DNA from: Pseudomonadota bacterium
Lineage (GTDB): Bacteria > Desulfobacterota > Desulfarculia > Desulfarculales > Desulfarculaceae
Assembly: GCA_018819925.1 (NCBI GenBank)
Contig: JAHJPG010000130.1
Coordinates: 1 to 64,000 of the forward strand
Reading direction: 5' to 3'
DNA: 64,000 nucleotides
Part shown: positions 1,715-11,744 of the stretch, piece after piece
Layout of the letters: each line of letters begins with the position of its first letter
Numbering within the stretch: position 1 is the first letter of the stretch
Translations under genes and position numbers: made by a program
Notes under the pieces: generated by a model
The model's database searches: none
Seen by the model: only the letters and a program-made list of their open reading frames with translations
Told to the model about the DNA's origin: nothing

Positions 1715-2566
1715 CTACGCTGCGATTTGGACAAGCGTTATTGTGCCCAGGGTGACGCTTTGCTCCAGGTCGATTGCAAGCCCCTTGCTTTGGTAGTCGC
1801 GGTGGGTTATCTCCAGCAGGTAGGTGGCTCCGCCCCTTTCCAGGTTGTCGAACCTGAAGTCGCCGAAACAATCGGTTGTGGTCTCCGTTACCAAAGGGCC
1901 ATTGTTCAGACGCACTTTGGCGCCTTCGGCGCACTCTTCCCGGCCGTTGATCATGACCGCTACGCTGCCACCAAGGAAACACTTGTTGAAGCGGTGCAGA
2001 TTTTTGTAGTAAACACGCGGGGCTGTTCCGTACTCCGGATGCAGCACCTCCAGTCCCTCGGCGGCGGCGGTGGTGCGCATCTCCTCGTCCGTGATGAGCA
2101 GGGCGCGGATGGCCCCGGTGGCGCAGGCTCCCACGCAACGGGGCTCTTTCCAGCCCTCATCCAGCAGGTGGGCGCAAAAAGTGCATTTTTGCGGGATATC
2201 CAGATCCTTGTTCCAGTAGATGGCGCCGTAGGGGCAAGCCCCCAACAGGTCTTTGCGGCCCTTGGCCTTCACCGGATCAATAAGCACAATGCCGTCCTGT
2301 CTCTGATACACCGCGTCGCCGCCCGTCTTTGCCACGCAAGGCGCCTGCTCACAGTGCATGCAGGGCGTGGGCAAGTAAGCCACATCGACCATGGGATACT
2401 TGCCCCGCTCCTTGCGCTGGATGTTGATCCAGCGGTGGCCGTGTCTGGGTTGCGGGGATGAGTAGCCCGGCCAGTCGTTGTCGACGTGCTCGTCCTTGCA
2501 GGCCAAGAAGCAATTGTTGCAGTCTTCGCATTTTTCGACGTCGATGATCAGGTGCCACTTTTTCAT
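1715..2566 (-). CDS. athS: Pyrogallol-phloroglucinol transhydroxylase-type small (beta) subunit
   Basis: 283 residues. The N-terminal two thirds is a polyferredoxin of the DMSO-reductase beta type: CEDCNNCFLAC at 13-23, then PCMHCEQAPC, ACPYGAIYW, CTFCAHLLDEG and CVGACATGAI, enough for three [4Fe-4S] clusters. The C-terminal third (about 195-283) is a beta-rich transthyretin-like domain (VTETTTDCFGDFRFDNLERG), which is the layout of the Pelobacter acidigallici transhydroxylase beta subunit (about 275 residues). It should pair with the molybdopterin subunit ending at 2568, directly upstream. No Tat or Sec signal, so cytoplasmic. It is the last gene of the minus-strand operon. Its paralogue is at 21804-22640. 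Confidence 0.9.
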   Translation of the reverse strand: MKKWHLIIDVEKCEDCNNCFLACKDEHVDNDWPGYSSPQPRHGHRWINIQRKERGKYPMVDVAYLPTPCMHCEQAPCVAKTGGDAVYQRQDGIVLIDPVKAKGRKDLLGACPYGAIYWNKDLDIPQKCTFCAHLLDEGWKEPRCVGACATGAIRALLITDEEMRTTAAAEGLEVLHPEYGTAPRVYYKNLHRFNKCFLGGSVAVMINGREECAEGAKVRLNNGPLVTETTTDCFGDFRFDNLERGGATYLLEITHRDYQSKGLAIDLEQSVTLGTITLVQIAA

Positions 2567-2567
2567 T

Positions 2568-5519
2568 TTAAGCTTGCTCCTTGTCCCACTTGACGACCTG
2601 CACCAGGCAGGAGTTGGAGGCTACCGCGTGCGACTTGTCAATTATGGTCCGCGCGGGGGTCAGTTGGTTGATGCAGCCTCCACGGTCCGGCGAACTTCCA
2701 GGCTCGCCCACTGGGTCGTATACGGCCGATGACTCGTAGGAGTGGATGGTGCCCGGTGACAGGCGCTCGGTTATTTGGGCCGCGCAGATGACCGCGCCCC
2801 GGTCATTGAACACCTTGACCAGTTCGTTGTTTACTATGCCCCGATTTGCGGCGTCCGTGCTGTTGATTCGGACGATCCAGTAGAAGTAGCCGTCGATTAG
2901 TATGCGGTGATCCTTGACGTCGTTAACGATGCTGTCCTTGCCGTCGCCCATGGTGTGGAAGCTGAAGCGGGGGTGTGGGGATATGAGCTGCAAGGGATAG
3001 CGCCGGTACAAATCTTGGGTGTGGTGCCCCTCCCAGGATGGGATGTACTTGGTCATGGTGGGCCGCTGGGGGTCGTCGGGGGCATAGCGCTCCAGGCTGG
3101 AGCACACGAACTCCAGCTTGCCCGACTGGGTCTGAAGGCCATGGCCGAAGCCCTCGCTGTAGTCCGCCGGCAGGGGGCCCAGCTCCGGCACGTCCTTGGG
3201 CCGCCCTTCCGCAAACCAGCGGTAGGAGCAGGGGGCCCTTAGTTCCTCGGGCGGAGCGGGGACCACATAGTACCCTTTGCGCAGGAACTTTTTCCAGGAG
3301 GTGACGCCAGCCAGATCGGTGCCGTCGAAAAGCTGCTTGCACCAGTCCAACTCGGTCATGCCCTCGGAAAAGAGAAGCGCCACCCCCAGCCGCTGAGACA
3401 GTTCCAGGAATATTTGGTAGTCGCTCTTGGATTCGCCCAACGGTTCGATGCATTTGTGCTGCATGGTGATCACCCGGTGGTTGCATTGGGTGAAGCTGTG
3501 GTGAACATAACCCCCGCAGTTGGCAAACTCGCCGATGTCCCAGCGCTCGAAGTTGGTGCAGGCCGGCAGGATGATGTCGGCGAACTTGGCCTCGCCTTCG
3601 AACCATATGGACTGGTTGACCACAAATGGCAGCTTGTCGGTGCGGTAGGATTTGACGTAGCGGTTGGTGTCGCTCATGGTGCCGAAAAAGGAGCCACCGT
3701 ATTTATAGTACATCTGGATGGGCGAGTGGCCCGGAGCAGGGTACTCGTATTTCTGGAATTGGCCCTCAATGGTCTTGGGGTCGGTGGGATAGCCTTCGCA
3801 GTGGCCCTCCAGGATAGCCTCGGGCAGTTTGAGCCTGGGCACCACCTGCTTTGAAGTGTTCATGGAGGGGAGCTGGGGCATGCGCTGGTACATGTTTATG
3901 CTCAGGCCGGTGTTCTCCAGGTCGCCGGACATGCCGCCCTCGGCGTAGCCGGGAAAGAAGAAACGTACGTCCACCGGTGAGCCGCACTGCATGTTGCCGA
4001 TGTTTATCCCCGGCTTGCCCAGCCCCTGCATGGCTATCAAGCACACCATGGCTCGGGCCCACTCGTTGCCGGTGGCGCAACGGGCGGCGCCGCCCACGCC
4101 CGCCGCGCCGCCTCCGCAGGCGAGATAGGTTTTCTTGGCGGCCCACTCCCGGGCCAGGGCCCGGACGTCCTTGGCCGGGACATTGGTTTCCCCCTCCTGC
4201 CACTCCGGGGTCTTGGGGACGCCGTCTTCCTTGCCCAGGACATAATCCTTCCACTGGTCGAAACCGGAGGTGCGTTTGGCCACATACTCCTTGTCATAGA
4301 GGTCTTCGGTGATCCAGACATAGGCTATGGCCAGCGCCATGGCGTTGCCCGTGGCCGGCCGCGGGGCGATCCACTTGCCACCCAACCAGGCGGCGGTGTG
4401 GTTGTAGTATGGGTCGATATGCACCATTTTTATGCCCAAGTCCTTAAGCCACTGCCGCCGGACGGAGCCTTCCATGGCCCCATAGACCCCGGCGGTGGAC
4501 TCCGGGTCGCTGGACCAGAACACAATCATCTCGCATTCCTTGAGGCAGTCCTCCACGGTGCCGTACACCTCCGGCGCCCCCAGCCTCATGCTGTGGCCCC
4601 AGTGGTGCATGGCCCCCCAGTAGAAACCCTCCCAGCTATCGGGGTTGTGCAGCACCGGCGTCCAGCCTATGAGATTCATGAACCGCGTGCGGCAGCTCAG
4701 GTAGTAGCCGATGTTGCCCCAGGTGTGGTGTGAGCCCGAACTGCCGAGGATGGCCCCGGGGCCATAGTCCCGCCTGACGCGCTTAATCTCGCTGGCAACG
4801 ATATCAAGAGCCTCGTCCCAACTTATGCGCTCGTAACCCGAGATGCCCCGCTGTTGGCAGTTGCGCTCGCCATGGGGGTCGAAGTCAACGCGCTTCATGG
4901 GATACAGAATCCGGTTGGGTGAGTAGACCATCGATTTCCAGGCGAAGGAATATGGCGAGAGGGTGGTTTTGCGCTGGGGAGTGAAGCTTTTGCCCCGCGC
5001 CTGGATGGTCCAGGATTTGGCGTCGCTGTCGTCGAAGTCGATGGGGGTGATGCGCAGAATCTTGCCGTCCTTGACATAGACAAACATCGGGCCGCCGGGG
5101 CTACCGTTGGTGTAGCGGATGACCCCACCCCCCATGTCGGTCCCGTATTTCCAACTCAGGGACATCATTTGGCTCATGGTTTCCATGAACCACTGCACCA
5201 ATTCATCGGGGCCCTCGGCGCCCATGTGGAAGTTTTTCATGGCGTTGATGCGCGCCAGCTGGTCGTGAGGCGGCATGAGCAGTTTGGCGGCCAGGGCCGA
5301 TTGGCTGAAAGTAAGGGTGATGTCCGGGTTGGGTCGCACCCCGGAGTGGGAACTCAGCTTGCCATCCCGGAAGACGTAATACCTGCCTTCTGTATGCTCC
5401 AGCACCTTTATTTGGGCGGTGAAGTTCTTTTCGTGCAGGCGGGCGCGGAAGGAGGGGTGCTTGCGCGCGGTGCGCTTGAGCATTTGATAGATGCTGTAAA
5501 GTATCACCGAAAGTTTCAT
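2568..5519 (-). CDS. athL: Transhydroxylase-type molybdopterin large subunit with N-terminal SCP2-like domain
   Basis: Start chosen at the ATG at 5519 ([13 protein letters not shown]); an in-frame ATG at 5582 has its AAGG only 1 nt away. The protein has 983 residues. Residues 1 to about 125 look like an SCP2 sterol-carrier domain ([38 protein letters not shown]). From about 130 ([17 protein letters not shown]) it follows the transhydroxylase alpha subunit to the end. Residues matching the known active site are kept: His in GSHHTWGN, the Asp-Ser of HNPDSWEG (Ser is the Mo ligand in the P. acidigallici enzyme), and Tyr in FPGYAEGG. There is no N-terminal Fe-S cysteine motif, as expected. The family isomerises pyrogallol to phloroglucinol using bis-MGD molybdenum. 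The fusion is unusual; the precise polyphenol substrate is not determinable. Confidence 0.88.
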
Positions 5520-5601
5520 GTTCTCGCCCTGCTTAATTTGGCAGAAGGGGCGGCATGGCTGACAGAAGCTGCCGTCCCGCATCCTTGATTAAAAATGGTT
5601 T

Positions 5602-6528
5602 CTAGTAACTCACCTGATCAATGCCCTTAAGTCCCAGCATCTCCCTGACCTGCCGGGGCCCGGCCAAGGGGCGGTTGTACTCTGATGCCAAACACTTGGC
5701 CTTTTCCACCAATTCGGCGTTGGATTTGGCAAGTTGGCCCGGCTTTATATAGATGTTGTCTTCCAGCCCCACCCGGACGTGGCCGCCCAAGGACAAGGCC
5801 ACCGGGGCCAGGTTGAACTGGGCAGAGCCCACGCCGCAGATGGACCATGTGAACTTGTCTTCGCCGAAGAGGGTGCAGGCCTTCCGGTGCAGGAAGGTGA
5901 GATCTTCGGGCATGGTGCCGATGCCGCCCAGAACGCCCATTACGAATTGCAGGTGTAGGGGCGGCCGCAGCATGTCCTCCTTCACCAGATACGCCAGGTT
6001 GTAGAGGTGGCCAACGTCGTATATCTCCAGCTCGGGCTTGCAGTTGTATTCCCGGACTAGGTTGCAAAGATGCTCGAAGTCGTAAAAGGTGTTTTTAAAC
6101 ACGAAGTCCTTGGACATCTCCAGGTACTCGGGCTCCCATTCATAGCGCCACTTTTTTATTTTCTTGAGCGGCGGATGCAGCGCAAAGTTGATGGAGCCCA
6201 GGTTGAAGGAGCACATCTCCGGAGCAAAGACGCCCACGTTGGCCGCCCGCTCCTGGACCGGCATAGTCGGCGAACCGCCGGTGGTGATGTTGATCACCGC
6301 GTCGCAACGTTCCTTGATGGAAACCAGTATCTCGCGGAAGTGGTCCGGATGGGCCGAGGGCGCTCCGTCCTCGGGTCGGCGGGCGTGGATGTGTACGATG
6401 CCCGCGCCGGCCTGGGCGGCTTCCACGGCCGAGTCGGCGATCTCTTGGGGGGTGTGCGGCAGATAGGGGGTGAGAGTGGGTACCGTAGCCGCGCCTGTGA
6501 TGGCGGCGGTGAGGATCAAAGGTTGCAT
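5602..6528 (-). CDS. Beta-keto acid cleavage enzyme (BKACE, DUF849), candidate triacetate acetoacetate-lyase
   Basis: Start at the ATG at 6528, preceded by GGAGAAGTCAGGC; 308 residues. The fold is the BKACE TIM barrel: MQPLILTAAITGA at the start, the metal-binding H46 and H48 in GIVHIHAR, NITTGG, and GSAQFNLAPVALSLGGHVRVGLEDN near the C-terminus. The family condenses a beta-keto acid with acetyl-CoA, releasing acetoacetate and a new acyl-CoA. Sitting between a 3-hydroxyacyl-dehydrogenase-type enzyme and a transhydroxylase, the attractive assignment is cleavage of 3,5-dioxohexanoate (triacetate) in phloroglucinol fermentation. 3-Keto-5-aminohexanoate or dehydrocarnitine cleavage are alternatives known for the family, but nothing nearby supports them. 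Confidence 0.85.
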   Translation of the reverse strand: MQPLILTAAITGAATVPTLTPYLPHTPQEIADSAVEAAQAGAGIVHIHARRPEDGAPSAHPDHFREILVSIKERCDAVINITTGGSPTMPVQERAANVGVFAPEMCSFNLGSINFALHPPLKKIKKWRYEWEPEYLEMSKDFVFKNTFYDFEHLCNLVREYNCKPELEIYDVGHLYNLAYLVKEDMLRPPLHLQFVMGVLGGIGTMPEDLTFLHRKACTLFGEDKFTWSICGVGSAQFNLAPVALSLGGHVRVGLEDNIYIKPGQLAKSNAELVEKAKCLASEYNRPLAGPRQVREMLGLKGIDQVSY

Positions 6529-6629
6529 GCCTGACTTCTCCGTTTTGCCTCGGGCCGGCCGGGGCCACCCAAGGCTTGTGATGATCGGGTCGGTTTCTTG
6601 GTCAAGAAAGGGATCGCTTCTCTCGGCAG

Positions 6630-7589
6630 TCATCTCTGGGAGGCCCCTTGCTCGCGGTTCCACCGGATCAGGTGCTCCTGTAGGTTGCGCCGAACTTCGG
6701 CTATGGCCTCAGGCGACCACGTTTGAAATCCCACGCCGCTCTTGAAACCCAATTCTCCATGGTCCACCTTTCTTCGCAGAAGGGAGGATGCCTCGGTGGA
6801 ACGATCGAGGTGCTCAAGAATGTAGTCGTGGATGGCCAGGGTGAGGTCCAAACCGGCCAGGTCGGCGTTTTCCAGAGGGCCCAACACCGGCAGCCTGACG
6901 CCGAAGCCGAACTTGATGACCTCGTCCACCACCGCGGGCTCGGCGATGCCGTGCTCCACAATGGAGATCGCTTCGCGCCACAGGGCGTGCTGCAAGCGGT
7001 TGCCCACAAAGCCCGGCACGTCCTTTTCCACCCTCACCGGGTGCTTGCCTACCCGAGCCAAAAATGCCAGGGTGATTCCCATGGTCTGCTCTGAGGTGTC
7101 CCTGGCCCGAATGACTTCCACCAGGGGGACCAGATAGGGCGGGTTCCAGAAGTGTGTCCCCACGATCCTGTCCCGGCCCCGGGCTTTTTCCGCCACCTCA
7201 CTTATGCTGATCACCGAGGTGTTGGTGGCCAGGATAGTCTCGGCGGGGCAGATGCGGTCCAGCCTACGGAATATCATTTGTTTCAGTTCGAGGTTTTCGT
7301 TGACCGCCTCCACTACAAATTGAGCGCCGTCCGCCGCCTCCTCTAGCTCCGTGGTGGTTTGAATCATGGCCAGGGCGGGCTCAATTTCTTCGGCGCGGCC
7401 CAGGCCACCCTGGGCCATGAGACTCATATTGGCGCGAATGCTTTCCCGCGCCAACGCCAGAGCTTCTTGGCGAACGTCCTGCAACCGGACCCGGCAGCCA
7501 TGGGCGGCGAATATCTGGGCCAATCCGTGTCCCATCAAGCCCGCTCCGATTACGGCGACGGAACTGATGTTGTCAAAACTGGGGGCCAT
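6630..7589 (-). CDS. 3-hydroxyacyl-CoA dehydrogenase-family enzyme, candidate 3-hydroxy-5-oxohexanoate dehydrogenase
   Basis: ATG at 7589 follows GAGAGGGAAGAGT; 319 residues. A Rossmann NAD site is at 15-20 (GAGLMG); the catalytic segment reads ATNTSVISISE and THFWNPPYLVPLVEVI, and the C-terminal domain has GFVGNRLQHALWREA. The HFWNPP variant (HFFNP is usual in HAD enzymes) is shared with the paralogue at 39148. The gene lies 101 nt upstream of the BKACE gene, and this pairing fits the phloroglucinol route, where (S)-3-hydroxy-5-oxohexanoate is oxidised before acetyl-CoA-dependent cleavage. Conversion of hydroxyacyl-CoA or carnitine cannot be excluded from sequence alone. Confidence 0.8.
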   Translation of the reverse strand: MAPSFDNISSVAVIGAGLMGHGLAQIFAAHGCRVRLQDVRQEALALARESIRANMSLMAQGGLGRAEEIEPALAMIQTTTELEEAADGAQFVVEAVNENLELKQMIFRRLDRICPAETILATNTSVISISEVAEKARGRDRIVGTHFWNPPYLVPLVEVIRARDTSEQTMGITLAFLARVGKHPVRVEKDVPGFVGNRLQHALWREAISIVEHGIAEPAVVDEVIKFGFGVRLPVLGPLENADLAGLDLTLAIHDYILEHLDRSTEASSLLRRKVDHGELGFKSGVGFQTWSPEAIAEVRRNLQEHLIRWNREQGASQR

Positions 7590-7843
7590 ACTCTTCCCTC
7601 TCGTTGTGCGGGCCACTGTGCTCGTGTCCAAAATGGAGCACTTGGCCGGTGAGCATATCGCTGACCTTTGAGGCCATGTACACGGCAGTTTGGTTACGGT
7701 TGGGGTAGCTGACAGACTCCGCCCAGACCGATCGAAGCAAGGGCTAGTACCGCCACCTCGCCCCCGGGGCTGAACAGCCCTCGACCTAGACGTTGTTCCC
7801 CCCTGCGAATGGTTTCCCCCGTGGCGCCGGCAATTTCCGCCAT
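7573..7843 (-). pseudogene. Probable C-terminal relic of a short-chain dehydrogenase/reductase
   Basis: Minus-strand frames between the OsmC-like gene and the dehydrogenase contain SDR-like fragments. One frame (from 7843, stop at 7694-7696) reads MAEIAGATGETIRRG and GGEVAVLALAS; a shifted frame continues as NQTAVYMASKVSDMLTGQV, which matches the SDR C-terminal signature (FLASD..SYITGQVLHVDGG). The frames are broken by a stop and a shift, and no Rossmann N-terminus is present. Phloroglucinol reductase is an SDR, so this may be what is left of it, but the match is short and could be misjudged. Confidence 0.4.
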
Positions 7844-7896: not shown

Positions 7897-8361
7897 CTAC
7901 ATCTCGCGTATCTCCGCCTGGTGCATAATTTGGATGCAGCCCATGACGCTTTGGGCGGCCGGACAATTTTTCAGATAAGCGGCCATGGTCTGCCGTATCC
8001 CGGCGGAACTGCCCTTGGGAGCCACGATCGTGTAATTCACGCGAATCCGGGTGATCTTGAGCACTCCGCCGATATCCTCGATGTCCCCCTCCACATCCGC
8101 CATATAGGTTTCACTGGTGGTGATGATGCCCTTGCTGGCCAGCGCCGTGGCCAGTGTCCCCATCATTCAAGCGCCGATGGCGCTGACGATGTGGTCCAAG
8201 GTAGCCGGGTGCTCCTCACGTGCCTCCGCTTTGTAGAATTTCTTGATCCCGCCATGCAGTCCGTAACGGACCTCCCCGGAAAACCCTTCAATGGTGGTAA
8301 GTCGGGTGGGGCCCTCCTCGCGAACAATATGGCTGCGTGAGGTGTGGATTACCTTGCGCAT
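7897..8361 (-). CDS. OsmC-like selenoprotein (in-frame UGA read as selenocysteine)
   Basis: Two adjacent minus-strand frames lie in the same phase, separated only by TGA at 8167-8169. Read through, they make one 154-residue OsmC-family protein: ATG at 8361 after GGAGGAAAAA, LDHIVSAIGA just before the TGA, MMGTLATALASKGI just after, and a C-terminal KNCPAAQSVMGC holding the second conserved Cys. The UGA falls where OsmC proteins have their first catalytic Cys. Starting 12 nt after the UGA is a 7-bp hairpin (8135-8154) with loop CGGCGC, beginning 19 nt from the UGA and with G in the second position, as in bacterial SECIS elements. OsmC-like proteins are a known Sec family in deltaproteobacteria. 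Role: thiol/selenol peroxidase-type detoxification, cytoplasmic. Confidence 0.85.
8135..8154 (-). promoter_or_regulatory. Predicted bacterial SECIS hairpin
   Basis: On the mRNA the order is UGA, 12 nt, CUGGCCA, loop CGGCGC, UGGCCAG. The stem is 7 perfect pairs. The loop starts 19 nt after the UGA and has G within its first two bases, which fits the published bacterial SECIS pattern. It lies inside the OsmC-like coding region. Confidence 0.75.
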
Positions 8362-8441
8362 TTTTTCCTCCGGGCCGCGGTGTGCCGCCGCCCTGTCTTG
8401 GCCATGGTTAGCGCGCAACGCCCAGCAGGCGATAGCCCCGC

Positions 8442-9386
8442 CTATTTGCGGCGAGGCGAAAGTATTTCGAAACCTAGCTTTGCCTGCAGGGTACCCATGA
8501 TGCCTTTGGGGGCCAGCAGAATCACGGCAATGGCTATGGCCCCCAGGATGAGCAGGCTCACCGAAAAGTAGTCGGCCAGGACCTGGGACAGGAACACCAA
8601 GATAAGCGCCCCCACTATGGGACCTTCAATGGTGCCGATGCCCCCGATGATAACGATGAACACCAGCTTGACCGTCCAGTCTATGGAGAAAGCCTTGTAG
8701 GGCTGCACAAAAACCTGAAAGATGTAGAAGACGCCGGCCGCCATGCCGGTTATGAAGGCGGCGATCAGAAAACAGTAGAGCTTGTAGCGGAAGACCTGTA
8801 CTCCCATGGTTTCGGAGACGTCCTCGTTGTCGCGCATGGCCATAAGGCCCAGACCCAGCCGGGAGCGCATGATGAAGTAGACCAGCGCCACCGAGCCCAC
8901 GCCCAGCACAAAGGCGATGTAGAAAGTCTCGTTCGTGGAAAGCGGTGGGTTCGTCTTGATGAACAAGCCGGTGCCGTACTTGACAAAGCTCCAGTTGCTG
9001 AACCATATCATCAGGATCTCGGCGAATATCCAGGTGCCGATGGAGAAGTAGACTCCCTTCATCCTAAAGATGAACAGGGACATGAACAGGGCCAGCAGCA
9101 CGGAGAAAAAGCCACCGGCAAGTATGCTCAACAAAACGTTGAGCCCGTAATAGTTGCCCATAACGGCCACGGAGTAGCCGCCGATGCCCAAAAACACCTG
9201 CTGGCCCAGGGAAATGAGCCCGGAATAGCCGGCCAGGAGGTTCCACATCTGCGCGACGGTGAGATATAGGCAAAAAAGGAAGAAAAACAAAACCAGGTAA
9301 TCGGAGCCCCATAGGGGTACAGTGCCCAGAGCCGCTGTCAAAACCCCCATCCAGACCAACCTGGACCGGCAAATAACATCCTTCAT
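8442..9386 (-). CDS. livM: Branched-chain amino acid-type ABC transporter permease LivM
   Basis: 314 residues from the ATG at 9386 (MKDVICRSRL); a TTG at 9407 is an alternative start. It is very hydrophobic, about nine to ten membrane spans, with the LivM hallmarks QMWNLLAGYSGLISLGQQVFLGIGGY split over the N-terminal third and the EAA-like loop RSRLGLGLMAMRDNEDVSETMG. It forms the inner-membrane channel with LivH. The ATG is 8 nt past the livH stop, so translation is probably coupled. Located in one operon with transhydroxylase and ring-product enzymes, it probably carries an aromatic substrate, as Liv homologues do in other aromatic degraders, instead of amino acids. Confidence 0.92.
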   Translation of the reverse strand: MKDVICRSRLVWMGVLTAALGTVPLWGSDYLVLFFFLFCLYLTVAQMWNLLAGYSGLISLGQQVFLGIGGYSVAVMGNYYGLNVLLSILAGGFFSVLLALFMSLFIFRMKGVYFSIGTWIFAEILMIWFSNWSFVKYGTGLFIKTNPPLSTNETFYIAFVLGVGSVALVYFIMRSRLGLGLMAMRDNEDVSETMGVQVFRYKLYCFLIAAFITGMAAGVFYIFQVFVQPYKAFSIDWTVKLVFIVIIGGIGTIEGPIVGALILVFLSQVLADYFSVSLLILGAIAIAVILLAPKGIMGTLQAKLGFEILSPRRK

Positions 9387-9393
9387 AATGGGT

Positions 9394-10254
9394 TTATGCC
9401 TTTCCAAAGATGCCGTTCGGCCTAATTGCCAAGACGATGAGCAACACCATGTAGCCGCACAGGAGTTGGTAGCCCGGCCCGAAGAAATGAGCTCCCAGCA
9501 ATTGGGCCATGGCCAGGATGAACCCTCCGACCAAGGTGCCCTTTATGCTGCCCAGGCCGCCGATGATCACCACCCCGAAGGCGATGATCAAGTATTGGGG
9601 GCCTGTGTGAGGATAGAAGATGAAGGTCATGCCCACCAATACTCCGGCCACCGCAGCGGTGAGCGCGGCGATTCCCATGGCGTAGGCATAGATGCTGGAG
9701 GTGTTGGCCCCTACCAATTTAGCGGCCACGACGTCGTCGGATGCCGCCCGAATGGCTCGACCCAGGAAGGTCTTGCGGAAAAATTGCCTAAGCCCCAAGA
9801 TCACGGCCAATCCGATGAGGAAGTTCAACAGATATAAGAGCGAGATGTTTATCTCACCGAGCGAAATGGTCATCATGCTTAGGTCGGATTTTAGGGCGCG
9901 GGCATCGCTGGTGAATACCAAGAGCAGAAAGTTCTGAACAATGATGGATATCCCAAAGGCCATCAACAGCGGCGGCTCCATGCCCTTACCCAGTACCCGG
10001 TTGAACAGCACGCTCTGGATCAAGAAGCCGACGCAGAACATGATCGGCGCGACCAGCAAGATGGTCCACAGGGGATTAAGGCCCAGCCACATGCAGAAGG
10101 CCAGGCTAAGGTAGCTCCCCAGGATCACCATGTCGCCGTGGGCCAGGTTCACTACCCTGACGATTCCGAAAATCGTGGACAGGCCCAAGGCGATAACGGC
10201 GTACAAACCGCCCAACAAGAGCCCATTAATTATTGGTTGCGCGAGGTCTATCAT
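9394..10254 (-). CDS. livH: Branched-chain amino acid-type ABC transporter permease LivH
   Basis: 286 residues, LivH family: N-terminal NGLLLGGLYAVIALGLSTIFGIVRVVNLAHGD region, EAA loop LGRAIRAASDDVVAAKLVGA, and GGLGSIKGTLVGGF near the end. About eight membrane segments. It pairs with LivM at 8442 to form the translocation pore. The gene lies 48 nt after livF in the order livG-livF-livH-livM. No binding protein is encoded in this operon; the three candidates are at 15485, 22784 and 29142. Confidence 0.93.
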   Translation of the reverse strand: MIDLAQPIINGLLLGGLYAVIALGLSTIFGIVRVVNLAHGDMVILGSYLSLAFCMWLGLNPLWTILLVAPIMFCVGFLIQSVLFNRVLGKGMEPPLLMAFGISIIVQNFLLLVFTSDARALKSDLSMMTISLGEINISLLYLLNFLIGLAVILGLRQFFRKTFLGRAIRAASDDVVAAKLVGANTSSIYAYAMGIAALTAAVAGVLVGMTFIFYPHTGPQYLIIAFGVVIIGGLGSIKGTLVGGFILAMAQLLGAHFFGPGYQLLCGYMVLLIVLAIRPNGIFGKA

Positions 10255-10302
10255 AATTCTTCCAGTGGCTGTGGAGCCCGATGGCGGCCCCGCTGCAGCG
10301 TA

Positions 10303-11018
<716 letters not shown>

Positions 11019-11019
<1 letters not shown>

Positions 11020-11744
11020 TAGTCTTCCTCCGATCCCAGGTAGCATTCCATCACATCTTGTGAGTTCATGACGTGACGAGGGTCGCCGCATTGCAGACGG
11101 CGGCCCCCGTCCAGGACCAAAAGACGATCCACGCCCTCCGACAGCATCATCAGGATGTGTTCGATCCAAACGATGGAGACGCCTCTGTGTTGGATCTCCT
11201 TGACGACCTTCAGCAACATCTCCACTTCATTTTCAGTTAGACCGCCGGCCACCTCGTCAATGAGAAGCAGGCGCGGCTGGGTGGCCAGGGCTCTGCCCAA
11301 CTCAAGCCTTTTGCGGTCCAACAGACATAGTCCTCCTGCCAATTTGTCCTTCTCTGGCAACAGGCGAATCAACTCCAGCACCTCCATCGCAAACGGTGCG
11401 GCATGCTTTTCCCTCATGCCGGCCCCGTGTACCGCCCCCACCAGCAGGTTTTCATATACGGTCATGTTCTCGAAGGGACGTGGTATCTGGTAGGTGCGCC
11501 CGATGCCCTGGCGACAGCGCCGGGCGGGAGACTCGCGGGTGATGTCCACACCGTTAAAGATTATGGAGCCACCGTCAGCCTTGAGGGTTCCTGTGATGAG
11601 ATTGAACATGGTCGTCTTGCCCGCCCCGTTGGGGCCTAACACGCCCAGTATCTCGCCTTGCCTCACTTCAAAAGATAGTTGGCTGACCACCAAGAGATGG
11701 CCGAAATACTTTTCCAGGCTTTTAACAACCAGAATGTCAGGCAT
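11019..11744 (-). CDS. livG: Liv ABC transporter ATP-binding protein LivG
   Basis: 241 residues; Walker A GPNGAGKTT, Walker B RLLLIDEVAGGL, and the H-loop His in IVWIEHIL. The helical insert (ENLLVGAVHGAGMREK) is typical of LivG. The usual LSGGQ signature reads LDRKRLELGRAL, the variant common in LivG proteins that use the LSYGQ/LDRKRLE form. It is the first gene of the minus-strand operon that runs down to the small transhydroxylase subunit at 1715, with GGGAAAC before the ATG. Confidence 0.93.

Follow-up and report, generated by a model that had tools for sequence, protein, structure and literature searches.

A probable OsmC-family selenoprotein gene belonging to a UxxG branch seen in two bacterial phyla

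Introduction

An OsmC-like selenoprotein with the motif UxxT was described from the Sargasso Sea in 2005 (COG1765/PF02566; PMC1088965), and OsmC-like selenoproteins were recorded again in the GOS survey (PMC2398784). They also appear in recent reviews and have an NCBIfam model, NF041052 (OsmC_like_Se). In the Ohr peroxidases of the same family, the peroxidatic Cys is activated by an Arg/Glu pair, Arg19 and Glu51 (PMC5962072).

The gene described here lies in a window of 64,000 nucleotides (the whole stretch of DNA that was analyzed) from assembly GCA_018819925.1. Like the UxxT proteins and those of NF041052, it belongs to the OsmC family, has a predicted selenocysteine (Sec) redox motif, and carries a putative SECIS element right downstream of the UGA. 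It differs from them in that its branch has UxxG (UMMGT, UMTGT, UMYGT, or ULTGN) instead of UxxT, and it is told apart by motif and by model score: three branch members score 16.1, 13.9, and 14.5 bits with NF041052, whose domain cut-off is 95. With the OsmC/Ohr peroxidases (TIGR03562 and TIGR03561; structures 1nye/1qwi; X. fastidiosa Ohr) it shares the fold and the two catalytic positions, but Sec would replace the peroxidatic Cys and identity in structure alignments is about 10 to 18%. By the cut-offs, the protein stands outside NF041052 and the OsmC/Ohr subfamilies, and it probably works as their members do.

The window's phylum has the UxxG branch in common with the Rokubacteria phylum, and the branch appears to be distinct from the one already described. 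In the part of the literature on Rokubacteria/Methylomirabilota selenoproteins that we covered, nothing concerns a UxxG OsmC family, and an earlier notice is possible; a review mentions 63 predicted selenoprotein genes in one Methylomirabilota MAG (PMC13188914). Since NCBI's current models miss the branch, annotation likely splits the gene or calls it a pseudogene, and this misannotation likely concerns about a hundred sampled genomes in two environmental phyla.

Protein family and likely activity

Read directly on the minus strand, the gene is a single frame of 154 codons whose sole interruption is a UGA (Table 1), in agreement with the earlier note, which had described two same-phase frames joined by this TGA. 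The note had also expected an annotation pipeline to see two fragments or a pseudogene, and two fragments are what the mechanical list of open reading frames gives.

Table 1. Features of the predicted selenoprotein gene and its flanks (window positions)
Feature	Position	Strand	Remarks
Predicted selenoprotein gene, OsmC family	7897..8361	-	154 codons + TAG; same-length homologues, start/stop at matching places
Start codon ATG	8361-8359	-	
Shine-Dalgarno-like GGAGG	8367..8371	-	5 nt upstream of the ATG; direct reading
UGA, predicted selenocysteine, residue 65	8167..8169	-	Aligned with first catalytic Cys of OsmC; same column in full-length homologues read
Putative SECIS hairpin	8135..8154	-	bSECIS fit; frozen synonymous stem sites; C-G/U-A double changes
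Cys133, CP motif, likely resolving thiol	7963..7965	-	Invariant in full-length members; aligns with second Cys of E. coli OsmC
Stop codon TAG	7899-7897	-	
Branched-chain-type ABC transporter	8442-11744		
3-Hydroxyacyl-CoA dehydrogenase	6630-7631		
BKACE enzyme	5602-6663		
Pyrogallol hydroxytransferase-like molybdoenzyme + Fe-S subunit	1715-5582		

The read-through protein (154 amino acids, with TGA as U) matches PF02566 with an E value of 2e-10 and 41.4 bits, above the gathering cut-off of 27.5, and this match, together with an OsmC fold, places it in the OsmC superfamily. U65 aligns with the first Cys of E. coli OsmC (1qwi/1nye) and C133 with the second, so that both catalytic Cys positions of the OsmC/Ohr peroxidases are filled. 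The alignment with E. coli OsmC is weak alone (E about 0.4), but the Pfam match and the fold back up the placement of the Cys column, and homologues carry their UGA there as well; the proposal that the UGA stands at the first conserved Cys of OsmC proteins thus held.

The fold was taken from an AlphaFold2 model (mean pLDDT 84, pTM 0.81) built on a three-row alignment of the window protein with those of a relative within the class (L024) and a Rokubacteria MAG (L022, the first Rokubacteria relative seen). In the PDB fold comparison the first 32 rows are all OsmC/Ohr structures; the best match is 3cje, an OsmC-like hydroperoxide resistance protein from Jannaschia (Z score of 12.7 over 123 residues at 2.4 A), yet its sequence identity is 8%. 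The high Foldseek rmsd probably arises because the N-terminal part is placed differently in a single-chain model of a dimeric fold. The selenoprotein conclusion is independent of the structural evidence and stands without it.

By analogy with the family, the protein would most likely be a peroxidase or redox enzyme of the OsmC/Ohr type that works through a selenol, with Sec65 and Cys133 as its reactive residues and a substrate that we infer. In the alignment, Sec65 takes the position of the peroxidatic Cys and Cys133 that of the resolving Cys of OsmC/Ohr, which argues for a selenol and a thiol acting together much as Cp and Cr do in Ohr (PMC5962072). The Sec65 selenolate would reduce an organic hydroperoxide or similar electrophile, the oxidized selenium would then form an Se-S bond to Cys133, and the enzyme would be regenerated by a cellular dithiol, a part played for Ohr by lipoylated proteins. 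We give this peroxidase cycle roughly an even chance.

The strongest competing account accepts the selenoprotein and gives it another task, such as a different thiol exchange, sulfur transfer, or electrophile scavenging. Among the homologues E50 and D56 never vary and R14 hardly does, but none is a certain counterpart of Arg19 or Glu51 of Ohr, and peroxidase activity is therefore not assured. The subfamily models point the same way: all OsmC, Ohr, and OsmC-Se models score 12 to 22 bits versus cut-offs of at least 85 (TIGR03562 gives 18 bits versus 85.8), and TIGR03561 gave no match for the window protein. The neighboring genes, moreover, are varied and indicate no pathway. Against this account stands the Sec/Cys pair itself, which occupies both catalytic positions of the family's peroxidases, and we regard a nonperoxidase role as a serious contender that falls a little short of evenly balanced.

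Recoding of the UGA

Under either activity, we consider the gene very probably a selenoprotein gene of the OsmC family in which UGA is read as Sec, as the earlier note had proposed; the PF02566 match, the UGA shared with homologues, and the Sec machinery of the genome all argue for this reading. SelB, bound to a hairpin 12 nt past the UGA, would deliver Sec-tRNA(UCA) and place Sec at residue 65.

In this hairpin CTGGCCA (8154-8148) pairs with TGGCCAG (8141-8135) around the loop CGGCGC (8147-8142), giving 7 bp and a 6-nt loop that starts 19 nt past the UGA and has G at its second position; the earlier note had given the stem length, the loop size with its G, and both distances exactly. The hairpin falls within all the bSECIS limits set out in PMC13188914 (loop of 3 to 9 nt, stem of 4 to 16 bp, a G within the first two positions of the loop, a distance of 16 to 37 nt from the UGA to the loop, and energy of -7.5 kcal/mol or lower); the 45 nt that follow the UGA reach -17.8 kcal/mol.

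Codon usage among 31 homologues from the window's phylum bears the same mark. Relative synonymous entropy is 0.33, 0.26, 0.30, and 0.35 at stem codons L70, A71, L74, and A75, which are nearly fixed as CTG/TTG and GCC, and the gene-wide median is 0.92 over 79 columns. Leu and Ala codons off the stem give 0.89 to 1.14 and 0.87 to 1.13, respectively, and G68 and T69, between the UGA and the stem, vary (0.92 and 0.84). Low values outside the stem occur at S138 (AGC; 0.16), which can be explained by the split Ser codon family, and at I39 (0.39). Stem cells are paired in 97.1% of cases over 25 distinct sequences, and slid partners reach about 50% or less. Five sequences have U-A in place of C-G at the outermost pair, which is the sole pair with double changes, probably because most of the others are held fixed by the coding sequence; in one homologue (L051) the stem is weakened. 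Versus synonymous shuffles the window copy alone gives 0.017 by stem score and 0.04 by energy, a modest result for single sequences, so that the strength of the case lies in the comparison among homologues. In the Rokubacteria phylum the same span holds different hairpins, CGCTAGC-CGTGGC-GCTAGCG and GCGCGC-TGGAT-GCGCGC, with loops 17 to 26 nt past the UGA, which suggests that the element has altered in sequence and place and is still present. Judged by the codon test, the hairpin is real, and its fit to the bSECIS limits and conserved pairing support the prediction that it works as a SECIS. Compared among relatives, the gene shows clearly how a SECIS can be recognized from codon positions that hardly vary.

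The same region could be read as two polypeptides, an N-terminal part ending at the UGA and a second restarting at the ATG right behind it (TGAATGATG). Such an ATG (at 8166 in the window) is found in most homologues too, and stop-start coupling is common in bacteria. However, the codon after the UGA is CTG or CTC, instead of ATG, GTG, or TTG, in a Rokubacteria branch and in L111 (L022, L066, L072, and L082 were among those read), the ATG at 8166 has no Shine-Dalgarno-like ribosome-binding site in front of it, the conserved OsmC domain covers both halves, and the frozen hairpin would be left without a role. We consider two polypeptides very improbable.

Decoding as Sec further requires a machinery, and the components that had been named as a check are all in the assembly, which is 4.03 Mb in size and 96% complete: SelA (621 bits; cut-off, 268), SelB (389.5 bits; cut-off, 242), SelD (369.5 bits; cut-off, 125), and tRNA-Sec (73 bits; gathering cut-off, 47), to which ARAGORN assigns the anticodon TCA. 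The selD gene (L018; G000:C9:7683-8606) has an in-frame UGA of its own, in the motif GUAAK, at the usual Sec/Cys place of SelD, a sign that the host genome makes use of Sec decoding. SelB was found also in the Rokubacteria genome that carries L022. An Rfam search of the 64-kb window gave no match.

Any tRNA that reads through the UGA would give an identical open frame, and the codon might accordingly specify another amino acid, by general reassignment (e.g., to Trp) or by near-cognate read-through. Yet many homologous genes use UGA as their own terminal stop, the Sec machinery of the genome is complete, and Cys occupies this column both in E. coli OsmC and in a distant relative (L131). Another amino acid at this codon is thus highly improbable.

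Relatives in two phyla

A single-sequence search of 395 genomes of the window's phylum found matches in 37, the window's own included, and a 12-row profile run against 95 Rokubacteria-phylum genomes found them in 59; searches of plasmids and of PHROGs gave none. There is one close relative within the class (G062; 61%). The gene was not found in the other seven genomes of the genus, although SelB matches occur in all seven (one of them partial).

Every full-length member read, from both phyla, has the UGA at one column with conserved protein on either side. That this column coincides in full-length homologues of two phyla excludes chance, and the same UGA in relatives shows that it is not a sequencing error, which counters the objection that resequencing might reveal another codon. 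In a single genome a UGA at a Cys codon looks just like a pseudogene, the more so when the frame is listed as two fragments, but we give almost no weight to an ordinary Cys OsmC gene whose Cys codon was changed to TGA by decay or error, as the homologues sharing the UGA are 44 to 62% identical and the C-terminal part is conserved as protein.

The motif following Sec is MMGT (once MTGT), MTGT, MYGT, or LTGN/LTGT. The Cys of the CP motif never varies in full-length members, and a third Cys, C142, does. In the tree, the window copy and its class relative L024 fall within the clade of their phylum (support of 100/59; next fork, 99/87), the window copy on a long branch of 0.59.

No Cys version was found in the 63 genomes of the class, a profile search included, or in the 395 genomes of the phylum by single-sequence search; the sole Cys sequence encountered is the remote OsmC L131 (G456, in the Rokubacteria set), which has Cys on the UGA column. 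We suggest, tentatively and with the balance leaning somewhat against it, that this is a separate, Sec-only OsmC branch in two phyla in which selenium would be indispensable and the chemistry unlike that of ordinary OsmC/Ohr. A branch with no close Cys version would be a good test case for the contribution of selenium.

A second paralogue, shorter and likewise with a UGA, occurs in several genomes of the Rokubacteria phylum (motif UMYGT; in G441 and others, e.g., L127-L130); its hairpin loop lies about 26 nt past the UGA. L111 (G086:C19:52149-52589) is very divergent, with 27% identity to the window protein and a very long branch, and it has the UGA at the column in the motif ULTG. A copy from a genome assigned to the Rokubacteria phylum (L062/L112; G461) falls among the sequences of the window's phylum in the tree, by transfer or contamination. 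The apparent exceptions to the shared UGA are two remnants, one truncated at the UGA column with Cys there (L142; G465:C204) and one N-terminal and decayed past about 46 codons (L143; G248:C20).

Genomic context

The osmC gene is flanked by catabolic and transporter genes on the same strand (Table 1), and to this extent the earlier placement in an aromatic-degradation operon stood. The link drawn from it, between selenium and the detoxification of quinones or peroxides, is not supported: the neighbors differ in relatives, and the genus is otherwise without the gene in the genomes searched. A conserved operon was considered and rejected, as about 40 loci, examined with flanks of as much as 10 kb in either direction, have no recurring neighbor family. 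The best neighbor cluster comprises four loci with generic ABC ATPases, and among 76 codirectional neighbors each Pfam family occurs in at most two members; the calling of neighbor open reading frames was mechanical, so that small genes may be missed. In relatives' loci the gene is often alone on its own strand. Among the matches listed for same-family genomes, none covers the osmC stretch in synteny, and those present are to separate generic dehydrogenase, BKACE, and ABC genes. The want of a recurring neighbor makes polyphenol detoxification no more than a local possibility.

In the molybdoenzyme frame on the minus strand (2568-5582), about 160 residues precede the first recognized domain (PF21423, from residue 164), and this N-terminal stretch is perhaps an extra domain or the product of a wrong start.
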